NCBI RefSeq assembly: GCF_029309905.1
Contig: NZ_JARBJP010000006.1
Coordinates: 62,001-126,000 of the forward strand
DNA length: 64,000 nucleotides
Source of the DNA: Brytella acorum
GTDB lineage: Bacteria; Pseudomonadota; Alphaproteobacteria; Acetobacterales; Acetobacteraceae
Reading direction: 5' to 3'
The position numbers and the translations under genes were made by a program. Shown here piece after piece: positions 26,802-31,374 of this stretch (positions are counted from its first letter, which is position 1; each line of letters begins with the position of its first letter). Under the pieces are notes generated by a model. The model did not search any database. It was not told the origin of the DNA and worked only from the letters and a program-made list of their open reading frames with translations.

Positions 26802-28208
26802 TTATCGTCGGCTGATGCTATCGAATATCGGTATCGTCGCCGCCACGTTCGAGATGGACGCGGCATTGACCTCGTCCATCCACGGAATTTCCGCGAGAAT
26901 GCGCACATTGCTTCTTTGCGCGATGGCTGCGCGATTTCCTTCATTGATCGGACCGACGAGAAGGACCCCGGCAACCTCGATGCCCCGATTTTTCAGGGCT
27001 TCCAGGCTCAGAAGTGTATGGTTGATCGTGCCGAGCCCGCTGCGCGCGACGAGCACCACGGGCATGCCGTAAAGCGCGATGAGATCGATCATCATAAGGT
27101 GCTCGCTGGCGGGAACCAGCAGACCCCCGGCCCCCTCGATCACGAGCGGCGGCCGGACGCGGTCCGGGAGGGCGAGCCGTGCGGGATCGATCACCATGCC
27201 TTCGGCGCGCGCGGCATCCAGGGGTGAGAGCGACGCCTGGAGCGCATAGGCGGGAGGTATCATGCGCGATGGCGGCACGCCCGCGAGGTTCATGACCGTA
27301 TCGGTGTCTCCGGGCTCGTCCGCAAGTCCGCTCTGAAGCGGCTTCCAGTACGTCGCATTCCAGGCCTGTGTCAGACAGGCGCTCGCGAGTGTTTTCCCGA
27401 CTCCCGTATCCGTGCCGGTCACGAACACCCCGGGAAGCGGACAGGAACGCCGAAAGCAGCCGATTGCGACCTGATAGGTGACCGTCCCGGTCGCTCTCGC
27501 ATCGAAATTGTGGATGGCCGCCCGCAACCGTGCGCCCGTCGGAACGGCGGCAGGATGCGGGGTCGCAGCCCCTATGCGTTTCAGATCGCGCAGAAAAGCG
27601 AGCCCACTTCCAACACGGTCGTAGACGGGAATTACGTCCCAGGCGCCGCTGCCGCAGAACGGCCATTCCTTCTGAAGCTGCCGGGCGGAAGGATAGACGG
27701 GGAAGCCGCACGGCACGTCGCTGAGCGCGCAGGCGCGTCGCCACTCGGCAAAACTGCCTTCCGCAAGCGTGGTGACCATCAGGCGACCGCCGGGGGTGAG
27801 AAGGGCGGCGAGTTTCGCAAGGGCGGTGGCTCGGTCGGAAAGCCACTGCATCGCGAAGTTCGAGCAGATCAGATCATAGCGGTTCGCGCCATGAGCGTCG
27901 TTCGCATCCATCAGGGCGTAATGTGTCGCATGGTGGCCGACGCGTGAGGCCGTCTGCTCGAGCATAAGCGGTGCGATGTCCGTCACGGTCAGTTCCGCAT
28001 CGGGAAACATCGCCCGGATTTTTGACGTCAGCAGTCCCGTTCCGCACCCGAACTCGAGGATGCGACGTGGAGCCTTGTCCGCGAACGCGGCGCGGATGCG
28101 CGTCGCTAGCAACGTTGCGCTTTCGGCCTGGACTCGCGCGGCCCCTTCATACGCCGCTGCCGCCGCATTGAAGCGTCCTGCGATCGTCGAGCCGTCAGAC
28201 ACATTCAT
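26802..28208 (-). CDS. Fused malonyl-ACP O-methyltransferase / dethiobiotin synthetase (BioC-BioD)
   Basis: A 468-residue fusion. The N-terminal part (about 1-255) is a SAM-dependent methyltransferase of BioC type: motif I LEFGCGTG at 51-58, the ICSNFAMQWLSD segment typical of BioC, and a C-terminal BioC-like helical region. BioC methylates malonyl-ACP to start pimelate synthesis. The C-terminal part (about 259-468) is BioD: P-loop GTDTGVGKT at 265-273, K289 in WKPLQSG, and EGAGGLLVP at 358-366. BioD makes dethiobiotin from DAPA, ATP and CO2. There is no stop or frameshift between the parts. Start overlaps the upstream esterase by four bases (AAGGGAT upstream). Confidence 0.93.
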   Translation of the reverse strand: MNVSDGSTIAGRFNAAAAAYEGAARVQAESATLLATRIRAAFADKAPRRILEFGCGTGLLTSKIRAMFPDAELTVTDIAPLMLEQTASRVGHHATHYALMDANDAHGANRYDLICSNFAMQWLSDRATALAKLAALLTPGGRLMVTTLAEGSFAEWRRACALSDVPCGFPVYPSARQLQKEWPFCGSGAWDVIPVYDRVGSGLAFLRDLKRIGAATPHPAAVPTGARLRAAIHNFDARATGTVTYQVAIGCFRRSCPLPGVFVTGTDTGVGKTLASACLTQAWNATYWKPLQSGLADEPGDTDTVMNLAGVPPSRMIPPAYALQASLSPLDAARAEGMVIDPARLALPDRVRPPLVIEGAGGLLVPASEHLMMIDLIALYGMPVVLVARSGLGTINHTLLSLEALKNRGIEVAGVLLVGPINEGNRAAIAQRSNVRILAEIPWMDEVNAASISNVAATIPIFDSISRR

Positions 28209-28837
28209 AAAGCCATATCCCTTATCCAGGTCGCCAGCCTGTTCGGCTCCTCGAGAGGCAGGAGGTGGCCGCCCTCATAAATCAGGCCGGAGGAAACGGG
28301 CGAGAAGCTCTCATGGGTCATGTAGCTCGAAATGAGCGGGTCCCGCGCGCCCGCGATCCAGGCAATGCGTTCCGCGTTTTCGCGGGCGGGCTGGCGCGCA
28401 TCAACCTCGCATAGACGCTGCAATCCCGCTTCCAGGCGAGCGATGTCCGGCGCTCCTTCCCAGCTTTCCCGACAGCCGACGCGAGCGCGAAAATCGCCTA
28501 GAGTCGTCTCGGGTTCGTTTCCGAGTCTCTGGCGCATGCGGGTCAGGATGCGGAGCGGGATTCCGGACCTGAAGTCATCGGCACAGGAAAAGCGCGCAAA
28601 ACCGTTGATCACCAGGAGTTTCCGGCACCACGGCGGCATGCGCTCAAGGAACCACGGTGTTCCGGCAGAATGCGTGATCGCGACGAACGGTTCTTCCGGG
28701 AGCGCCAGATGGGGCGGCGCTCCGAAATAACCGGCTTCGAAGACCGTTGCCCGGCTGTCGTCGAGATCCGGCATGGAGAGCAGAGGCTTCCAGAATGACG
28801 CATCGAACCCCCATCCATGGACGAAAAGAAATCTCAT
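28205..28837 (-). CDS. BioH-like alpha/beta hydrolase (probable pimeloyl-ACP methyl ester esterase)
   Basis: A compact 210-residue alpha/beta hydrolase. The HGWGFDASFW start is like BioH, and the putative triad is S57, the Asp in IAGARDPLIS and the His in YEGGHLLPL. The nucleophile elbow reads THSAG, where the usual GxSxG first Gly is Thr. By position, between bioF and bioCD with four-base overlaps on both sides, it should remove the methyl group from pimeloyl-ACP methyl ester. It is shorter than E. coli BioH (256 residues). Other non-homologous esterases (BioG, BioK, BioJ) fill this role elsewhere, so a specific symbol is not assigned. Confidence 0.82.
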   Translation of the reverse strand: MRFLFVHGWGFDASFWKPLLSMPDLDDSRATVFEAGYFGAPPHLALPEEPFVAITHSAGTPWFLERMPPWCRKLLVINGFARFSCADDFRSGIPLRILTRMRQRLGNEPETTLGDFRARVGCRESWEGAPDIARLEAGLQRLCEVDARQPARENAERIAWIAGARDPLISSYMTHESFSPVSSGLIYEGGHLLPLEEPNRLATWIRDMAL

Positions 28838-30027
28838 GGCGCCGTCTCGTGCATGGCTTGAATGACGGCATTGGCGATCGTTGTAATGTCCTTCTCATCC
28901 TGCATGGCATTGAGAGTCAGGCGTAGTCGCGCGGTCCCGGCCGGGACCGTGGGAGGGCGGATGGCGACGGCGAGAATGCCATCGCTGGCCAGACGGTGCG
29001 CGACATCCATCGCGCGCGCGGCGTCGCCAATCCGTACCGGCACGATCTGCGTCGTCGAGCCGCAGCTATCCAGTCCTGCCGCGGCCAGCGCCTTGCGAAG
29101 CGTCTGTCCGCTGGCTTCGAGGCGCGCACGTTCGGCGGTGAGACCCGGCACGACTTCCAGCGCCGCGTCGATCGCGCCCAGCATCGGCGGTGATGGCGCC
29201 GTGCTGTAGATGAACCCGGAGCACGCGCTGACGAGATAGTCGCAAACGGCGCGAGATCCGGCGACATAGGCTCCCATGGCGCCGAGAGCTTTGCTGAATG
29301 TCCCCATGACGAGGTCCACGCCATGGTCTGTTGCCAGTCCCTGTCCGTGGCTTCCAAGCACGCCCGTGGCATGGGCCTCGTCGATATAAAGGAACGCTTC
29401 ATGACGATCGGCGAGCAGGCGCAGCGCCGCGACATCCGCGCGGTCTCCGTCCATCGAGAACACGCTTTCGGTGACGATGAAGCGGAGTCCTTTCTCATGG
29501 GCATGTTTCGCGAGCAGGCTTTCCAGATGCGCCATATCGTTGTGCCGGAAACGGTGCTGTCGAACGCCTGAGGCCACACATCCGTGATGCATGCTCGCGT
29601 GATTCAGGCGATCGGTGAAAACGAGCGCGTCATGGCCGGTCTGCTTCCCCGACAGGGCGAAGAGGGCGGGCAGCACGGAGGCGTTGGCCTGCCATCCTGA
29701 TGCAAAAATCAGCGCGCTTTCCACCTTCTTGAAGCGGGCGAGGCGATTTTCCACGGATGCGTGAAGGTCAAGCGTTCCGGTCACGAGTCGTGAAGCCCGT
29801 CCGCCGGTTCCGTAAAGCTCCGCCCATTGCGCCGCGCGCTCCGCCAGGGCGGGATGCGAAGCGAGCCCCAGATAGTCATTGGACGCACAGTCGATCAGCC
29901 GCGCGCCATCGCGCCGCACGACTTTCGGATCCATCCGGCGATGCCCGACCGGGCGCAGGGTGCGCCTCAGGCCCTTGGCATTGAGCGCGTCGAGCGCGCG
30001 CTGGAAATATGGGTCGAAGCGCGTCAT
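28834..30027 (-). CDS. bioF: 8-amino-7-oxononanoate synthase
   Basis: A 397-residue PLP-dependent alpha-oxoamine synthase that condenses pimeloyl-ACP with L-alanine. Motifs are the DCASNDYLGLASHP segment, the DEAHATGVLGSHGQG segment with the PLP aspartate, and the GTFSKALGAMGAYVAGS segment containing the Schiff-base lysine. The start at 30027 has GGACGG about eight bases upstream; the frame runs further to 30171 but without family similarity. First gene of the leftward bioF-esterase-bioCD operon, divergent from bioA. Confidence 0.95.
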   Translation of the reverse strand: MTRFDPYFQRALDALNAKGLRRTLRPVGHRRMDPKVVRRDGARLIDCASNDYLGLASHPALAERAAQWAELYGTGGRASRLVTGTLDLHASVENRLARFKKVESALIFASGWQANASVLPALFALSGKQTGHDALVFTDRLNHASMHHGCVASGVRQHRFRHNDMAHLESLLAKHAHEKGLRFIVTESVFSMDGDRADVAALRLLADRHEAFLYIDEAHATGVLGSHGQGLATDHGVDLVMGTFSKALGAMGAYVAGSRAVCDYLVSACSGFIYSTAPSPPMLGAIDAALEVVPGLTAERARLEASGQTLRKALAAAGLDSCGSTTQIVPVRIGDAARAMDVAHRLASDGILAVAIRPPTVPAGTARLRLTLNAMQDEKDITTIANAVIQAMHETAP

Positions 30028-30108: not shown

Positions 30109-31374
30109 ATGACCAGAAACCGGGTTGAGCGTGGCCTGTCCCACATTTGGCTGCCCTACACGCAGATGCACACCATGCGCGCACCCGTCGTCGCGGAGTC
30201 GACGGATGGCTGCGTCATCAGGACGGCGGATGGACGGTCGCTGATTGACGGCATCGCGTCATGGTGGACGGCCTGCCACGGCTACAATCATCCCCATATC
30301 CGCCAGGCGGTCGAAGAGCAGCTCCACCGCATGCCGCATGTCATGTTCGGAGGGCTCGTCCACCGGCCCGCGCTTGAACTCGCCACCCGACTCAGCGCTT
30401 TGCTGCCCGGCGATCTCGAACGCGTCTTTTTTACGGATTCCGGTTCTGTCGCGGTGGAGGTCGCCCTCAAGATGGCGATCCAATACTGGCTCAATCGCGG
30501 TGTGAAGGGGCGAACCCGGCTTCTGTCGTTTCGTGGCGGCTATCACGGGGACACCATCGCGACGATGGCCATCTGCGATCCGGAAGAGGGCATGCACGCC
30601 ATGTTCGCGGGCGCGCTTCCCGACCAGATCATCGCGGATCTGCCGACCACGCCCGGGAAACGCGCGGCTCTGGACGATCTTCTCGCAAGGCAGGGGCATG
30701 AAATCGCGGCGATCGTCGTCGAGCCGCTCGTACAGGGCGCGGGCGGTATGGTGTTCCATGCGCCCGAAGTTCTTAGGGCCTTGCGCGACGTCGCGGACAG
30801 GAGCGGCAGCTTGTTGATTCTGGATGAAATATTTACGGGATTTGGACGGACGGGAACAATGTTCGCGTGTGAACAGGCCGGAATCGTACCTGACATCGTC
30901 ACGCTCTCGAAGGCTCTGACCGGCGGCACGATGGCGCTTGCGGCGACCGTCGCGCGCCGTCACGTGTTCGAGGCATTTCTGTCGGACGATCCGTTACACG
31001 CGTTGATGCACGGCCCGACATTCATGGCCAATCCGCTCGCCTGTGCCGCGGCCAATGCATCGCTTGATCTTTTCGAATGCGAGCCGCGGCTGGAGCAGGT
31101 CGAGGCGATCCGGCAGCAACTGGAGACGGAGCTCGCGCCATGTCTAGACCTTGAAGGCGTGAAAGACGTCCGTGTGCTCGGAGCGATTGGCGTGGTGCAG
31201 CTTGAGCGCATCGACGACCTGAATGCTCTCAAGGACGCCTTTCTTTCGGAAGGGGTCTGGGTGAGGCCGTTTCGCGATATCGTCTATCTGACCCCGGCGT
31301 TCACGATACGCCCCGATCAGCTTTCACGGCTGACCGGGGCGATCTGCAAGGTGCTTGCACGCAAAACGGTTTAG
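30109..31374 (+). CDS. bioA: Adenosylmethionine-8-amino-7-oxononanoate aminotransferase
   Basis: A 421-residue class III aminotransferase producing 7,8-diaminopelargonate with SAM as amino donor. Family marks are the HIWLPYTQM start, the DGIASWWTACHGYNHP segment, the FFTDSGSVAVEVALKMA segment, the DEIFTGFGRTG PLP-aspartate motif and the LSKALTGGTMALAAT lysine motif. The substrate-side Trp and Tyr expected in BioA are present near the N terminus. Divergent from bioF, so the locus encodes every late biotin step except bioB. Confidence 0.96.
   Translation: MTRNRVERGLSHIWLPYTQMHTMRAPVVAESTDGCVIRTADGRSLIDGIASWWTACHGYNHPHIRQAVEEQLHRMPHVMFGGLVHRPALELATRLSALLPGDLERVFFTDSGSVAVEVALKMAIQYWLNRGVKGRTRLLSFRGGYHGDTIATMAICDPEEGMHAMFAGALPDQIIADLPTTPGKRAALDDLLARQGHEIAAIVVEPLVQGAGGMVFHAPEVLRALRDVADRSGSLLILDEIFTGFGRTGTMFACEQAGIVPDIVTLSKALTGGTMALAATVARRHVFEAFLSDDPLHALMHGPTFMANPLACAAANASLDLFECEPRLEQVEAIRQQLETELAPCLDLEGVKDVRVLGAIGVVQLERIDDLNALKDAFLSEGVWVRPFRDIVYLTPAFTIRPDQLSRLTGAICKVLARKTV

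Follow-up and report, generated by a model that had tools for sequence, protein, structure and literature searches.

The biotin locus and its two-domain gene

The window, meaning the whole 64,000-nucleotide (64-kb) stretch of Brytella acorum DNA analysed here, carries a biotin locus with the following genes and domains.

26802..28208, minus strand: bioCD, a BioC-type methyltransferase fused to a dethiobiotin synthetase, 468 aa (single frame, TIGR02072 and TIGR00347, AlphaFold2)
27447..28208, minus strand: BioC-type domain, residues 1-254, last strand 242-254 (TIGR02072, Foldseek)
27432..27446, minus strand: five-residue linker, residues 255-259 (strand ends in the model, junction comparison)
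26805..27431, minus strand: BioD domain, residues 260-468 (TIGR00347, phmmer)
28205..28837, minus strand: BioH-like alpha/beta hydrolase, candidate pimeloyl-ACP methyl ester esterase (weak TIGR01738 match, likely triad)
28834..30027, minus strand: bioF (TIGR00858, 411.1 bits, slightly under the cut-off of 426.45)
30109..31374, plus strand: bioA, divergent from bioF (TIGR00508, 537.8 bits, above the cut-off of 405)

The bioCD gene is a single minus-strand frame of 468 codons that runs from ATG to stop with no internal stop. The initial annotation had described an uninterrupted frame of this length without giving its strand, and its four motifs lie exactly where it placed them: LEFGCGTG at 51-58, GTDTGVGKT at 265-273, K289 within KPLQSG, and EGAGGLLVP at 358-366. 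It had also proposed that a BioC-type protein is joined to a complete BioD, which is borne out by near-full coverage of two NCBIfam models. Residues 12-253 match positions 1-243 of the 244 in TIGR02072 (BioC; 148.7 bits, E 2.4e-43), and residues 262-417 match positions 1-165 of the 166 in TIGR00347 (BioD; 127.7 bits, above the cut-off of 83.3). The BioC match is below the curated TIGR02072 cut-off of 184.95 bits, and thus we term the N-terminal half BioC-type. Pfam recognises a methyltransferase and an AAA_26 domain, and a phmmer search aligns the C-terminal half with E. coli BioD (1dts, E 1.3e-15). The phmmer search also matched PDB 4a0g, which we take to be the Arabidopsis BioA-BioD protein.

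BioD enzymes act as homodimers; bioCD was modelled with AlphaFold2 as one single chain (mean pLDDT 93.3, pTM 0.83, 36-row alignment). One strand of the model stops at residue 254 and the next starts at residue 260. When the model was compared with the PDB by Foldseek, ranks 1 and 2 were AbBioC (8x8j), rank 3 was a methyltransferase of uncharacterised kind (3ccf), and rank 4 was a BioD (3fmf). Across 14 fused proteins, residues G265, T266, D267, T268, G271, K272, T273, K289, D301, and E358 are invariant, as are glycines 54, 56, and 58 of the SAM motif. Seven of the nine P-loop positions are therefore fixed, with variation at 269 and 270. The P-loop residues, the substrate lysine K289, and the catalytic acidic residues D301 and E358 are what we take to be the essential residues of BioD. 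A further fusion (L050) reads GTGT where the others have GTDT.

The neighbouring genes are those expected from the initial annotation of a compact biotin operon with a BioH-like esterase and bioF, to which a divergent bioA can be added. Reading along the minus strand, the order is bioF, the BioH-like hydrolase, and then bioCD, with a 4-base ATGA overlap between the hydrolase and bioCD and another 4-base overlap between bioF and the hydrolase. The hydrolase matches TIGR01738 (BioH) at 40.5 bits, far under the cut-off of 206.95. Residues S57, D166, and H191 are its likely catalytic triad, judging from their retention in 49, 49, and 47 of 49 aligned homologues, and an HGW motif that would contribute to the oxyanion hole occupies positions 7-9 (46, 49, and 49 of 49). 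The longest bioF frame reaches 30171 and runs over the start of bioA. Homologues in many loci match only from residue 48-49, and the bioF start is probably Met49 (30027), which would place the divergent genes about 81 bases apart. A comparison of this bioA-bioF intergenic stretch across 17 loci revealed no pattern that we could name, and an Rfam search of the window returned no matches.

Elsewhere in the genome, bioB is present at a separate locus. No second BioD was found, leaving bioCD as the sole BioD match in the genome. The next-best TIGR02072 match scores 50.6 bits versus 150.9 for bioCD, which by these scores is the only convincing BioC of B. acorum.

Distribution of fused and separate forms

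Both domains occupy one frame in 51 of 299 Acetobacteraceae genomes, including B. acorum (G000); 50 of these were confirmed by script and one (G013) by its frame. Recurrence of the same single frame excludes a frameshift or sequencing join as its source, and the joining of bioC and bioD in one gene is real. In at least 25 of the 299 genomes the two genes are adjacent and separate, with frames checked in 14, and the remaining 223 have no bioC/bioD pair among the matches listed. The fused genomes belong to 17 genus codes and the split genomes to nine, and no code appears in both. Assignment of the family as Acetobacteraceae is supported by the named relatives Komagataeibacter, Gluconacetobacter, and Commensalibacter among the matches listed. 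The initial annotation had allowed that the pairing might occur elsewhere in Acetobacteraceae. It proved to be common there, but it is neither universal in the family nor restricted to it.

Single-frame BioC-BioD proteins are also found in at least three Alcaligenaceae (Bordetella trematum, Pigmentiphaga kullae, and an Achromobacter) and on Azospirillum plasmids. All seven Azospirillum records with at least 80% coverage have a bioD-labelled feature at the position of the fusion. The five records that were opened each contain one CDS of 469-473 codons named only 'dethiobiotin synthase'. These plasmid names would be explained by the scoring of the two halves, since in all ten fusions scanned (B. 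acorum and nine others) BioD passes the NCBI cut-off and BioC does not. BioC was also under the cut-off in the one split relative scanned. In practice the gene is recorded by automatic annotation as BioD alone, so that predictions of biotin synthesis in acetic acid bacteria and Azospirillum can wrongly report that the first step is missing.

A survey of 398 genomes from the phylum and 385 from the class yielded uninterrupted two-domain spans only in Acetobacteraceae, among the matches listed. Long spans in Cyanobacteria, Obscuribacterales, Balneola, Rhodothermia, Sphingomonas, and Magnetospirillum are adjacent separate or overlapping frames. Spans in the phylum sample with an internal stop (G632, G604, G676, G439, G455, G585, and G360) are two frames each, and two-domain spans with an internal stop also occur in the class sample (G792 and G816). 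One genome that appeared fused by frame length (G588) has two frames in the opened locus. Adjacent separate bioC and bioD genes in the same order are present in Magnetospirillum, Telmatospirillum, Balneola, Rhodothermia, and Obscuribacterales loci, and the order bioF, esterase, bioC, bioD recurs across loci.

Several loci depart from these arrangements. Among the family loci without a pair that were opened, some have bioD immediately after bioF, and a single one contains BioC with no BioD next to it. Four Acetobacteraceae loci (L067, L068, L069, and L078) have bioF then bioD and show neither bioC nor a BioH-like match in the same stretch; they possibly use another route to pimelate. In G135, one of the split genomes whose frames were checked, bioC is intact and the neighbouring bioD is divided into two frames that overlap, with 147 and 94 codons (L075:6345-7012), reflecting either decay or an assembly error. 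A Rhodospirillales MAG carries a 695-codon BioD-BioA fusion after bioF (L123:5992-8079), and a genome of the same phylum (G316) has a 545-codon frame in which a BioH-like hydrolase is joined to BioC (L108:2633-4270). Achromobacter animicus (L122:5572-6708) has a BioD that shares 80% identity with the corresponding half of the Achromobacter fusion. It is preceded by what appears to be a remnant of the final BioC strand, and no other BioC pieces were detected at that locus.

The presence of the fusion in Alcaligenaceae may reflect movement of the whole operon. BioA from the three species is 65-67% identical to that of B. acorum, compared with 36-50% for most other sampled bacteria. In a quick tree these three proteins group with Acetobacteraceae BioA (97%) apart from the other rows, and Azospirillum BioA is placed elsewhere. 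The shared operon with its divergent bioA thus points to horizontal transfer between Acetobacteraceae and Alcaligenaceae, in either direction.

History of the fusion

Forty-six rows were chosen from the loci for a BioC+BioD+BioF tree, which omits L058 (wrong frame) and L055, L073, L074, L116, and L193 (long or near-duplicate); the BioC+BioD tree also has 46 rows. The nine split Acetobacteraceae form one clade (100/98 with BioF and 100/99 without) that is nested among fused proteins. Forcing the fused rows into a single clade is rejected with both datasets (p-AU 2e-11 and 1.5e-5, respectively). A split Novosphingobium MAG is placed with weak support in both trees. An rpoB tree of 30 genomes shows broadly the same pattern: its deep branches are fused, with split genomes nested in three places, and fused genomes as one clade versus split genomes are again rejected (p-AU 4e-4). 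This nesting of split forms means either that an old fusion was later split, or that genes were split and then re-fused. One MAG in the protein trees, titled Zymomonas (L114), has a biotin locus typical of acetic acid bacteria, its BioA is 67% identical to B. acorum BioA, and it groups with Commensalibacter in both trees. Its title is probably wrong.

The length of the junction, counted from the last glycine of BioC up to the residue preceding VFVTG with neither included, bears on the choice between these histories. It is 8 in all 40 fused family genomes outside the B. acorum clade (three of which, L019, L021, and L055, were read by eye). Among the 11 genomes within the clade it is 9 in B. acorum and its nearest relative, 8 in one genome, and 6 in eight. 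Five Azospirillum proteins have a junction of 10, and the three Alcaligenaceae have junctions of 6, 9, and 11. When mapped on the rpoB tree, junction length changes twice within the B. acorum clade and nowhere else (p 0.02 assuming an even rate, chosen post hoc).

Such variation could mean that the two genes were joined several times, in Azospirillum, in Alcaligenaceae, deep in Acetobacteraceae, and in the B. acorum clade, where re-fusion would have followed an ancestral split. The constant junction elsewhere in the family and the concentration of changes in this clade make re-fusion a live alternative. In the rpoB tree, the split genome G009 branches just outside the B. acorum clade and the split genome G125 falls inside it, and thus by hand count re-fusion requires at most as many changes there as repeated splitting. 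Ancestral fusion and a split followed by re-fusion need three changes each on this tree, and re-fusion needs two if G125 comes first in an unresolved fork. However, linkers tolerate insertions and deletions, and no relic of an ATGA overlap was seen at the fused junctions. The BioC+BioD tree also favours an old fusion followed by splits, which by hand count gives the fewest changes within the B. acorum clade: two splits rather than up to three re-fusions. On balance, several independent fusions seem to us possible, though we would not bet on them. Equally tentative is a more specific proposal that bioC and bioD toggle repeatedly between fused and separate forms within one family, with the B. 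acorum gene being a re-fusion after an ancestral split that is retained for the limit it sets on BioC and the stability it lends, not for channelling.

Proposed function and comparison with known fusions

Our preferred reading, to which we assign a probability of roughly 0.75, is that bioCD is a bifunctional protein derived from neighbouring genes that were fused, perhaps once, and split several times later, and that the benefit concerns the dosage or solubility of BioC. We infer the two activities from protein family and structure. The N-terminal domain would methylate malonyl-ACP with SAM to start pimelate synthesis. The methylated product would then be elongated by fatty acid synthesis and stripped of its methyl group by the neighbouring esterase. 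After BioF and then BioA have acted, the C-terminal domain would form dethiobiotin, and BioB would finish the pathway. The initial annotation recognised that the fusion pairs non-consecutive steps, and this holds. The domains are predicted to be folded units with about five residues between them, and channelling is not expected.

The gene would have originated in an operon with the order bioF-bioH-bioC-bioD, through the joining of its adjacent bioC and bioD. If they fused once, this might have happened in a common ancestral form of the versions now seen in Azospirillum, Alcaligenaceae, and Acetobacteraceae. The fusion could fix the ratio of the two enzymes and keep an aggregation-prone enzyme that is able to block fatty acid synthesis in a soluble form tethered to BioD. 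A review (PMC11089781) reports that BioC is prone to inclusion-body formation and that fatty acid synthesis is blocked by the B. cereus BioC, which is soluble. Four findings count against this reading: the BioC half is below the NCBI cut-off, likewise in all nine other fusions scanned; the junction varies in length in the B. acorum clade and outside the family, which could mean separate fusions; ancestral fusion is not clearly simpler by hand count on the rpoB tree; and the split Novosphingobium MAG has a weakly supported place in the protein trees.

The initial annotation had suggested a small biotin assembly complex, and one could imagine that the fusion, the esterase, and BioF together channel intermediates. 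The tight operon with its 4-base overlaps and the recurrent gene order fit this picture, but BioC and BioD have no intermediate in common, with fatty acid elongation, the esterase, BioF, and BioA acting between them. Moreover, relatives with the split form retain an intact frame for each of the two genes, which suggests that the physical link is dispensable, and either history of the fusion argues against an essential complex. The co-location is ordinary operon structure, and we regard such a channelling assembly as very improbable. Dosage or stability of BioC is the likelier benefit.

We give just as little credence to the idea that one half is degenerate and that BioD alone works. The sub-threshold BioC score and the Achromobacter animicus relative, which has lost BioC except for an apparent last strand, lend it some plausibility. 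However, the TIGR02072 match is full-length, the SAM-motif glycines are invariant over 14 proteins, the top structural match is a BioC, and the genome has no other good BioC.

The chemistry proposed for bioCD is ordinary and its evolution is moderately interesting. The gene adds to biotin synthesis a pairing of enzymes that is widespread and apparently undescribed, and the natural set of fused and separate forms offers a means to test why enzymes without a common intermediate fuse at all. It may also supply a naturally soluble BioC, an enzyme that is reportedly hard to handle.

Fusions of other biotin enzymes are known, and the BioC-BioD pairing is apparently undescribed. The initial annotation found it unfamiliar, and we found no description in the open-access literature (subscription papers and preprints were outside the search). 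The accessible portions of PMC5438404 and PMC3571937 make no mention of it, and a pseudogenised 'bioCD' of an insect symbiont is two genes, according to the accessible part of PMC11264691. Neighbouring bioC and bioD genes, as in the transcription unit of E. coli bioB, F, C, and D (PMC11089781), have the same order and functions but encode two separate proteins.

Natural two-domain biotin enzymes include the BioWF fusions, which unlike bioCD combine different enzymes that catalyse consecutive steps of a different pimelate route (PMC9544090). In the Arabidopsis BioA-BioD protein, BioD is likewise covalently linked to another biotin enzyme, but it is joined to BioA and the steps are consecutive, whereas here the partner is BioC (PMC9544090). 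A close parallel is BioG-BioC of Bacteroides fragilis (PMC3494674). As in bioCD, BioC is naturally fused to an adjacently encoded biotin enzyme, the steps are non-consecutive, which its authors already noted, and related species have the genes separate. The partner there is the esterase BioG, and some ten additional residues separate the two domains. In bioCD the partner is BioD, which follows on the C-terminal side of BioC after about five residues.
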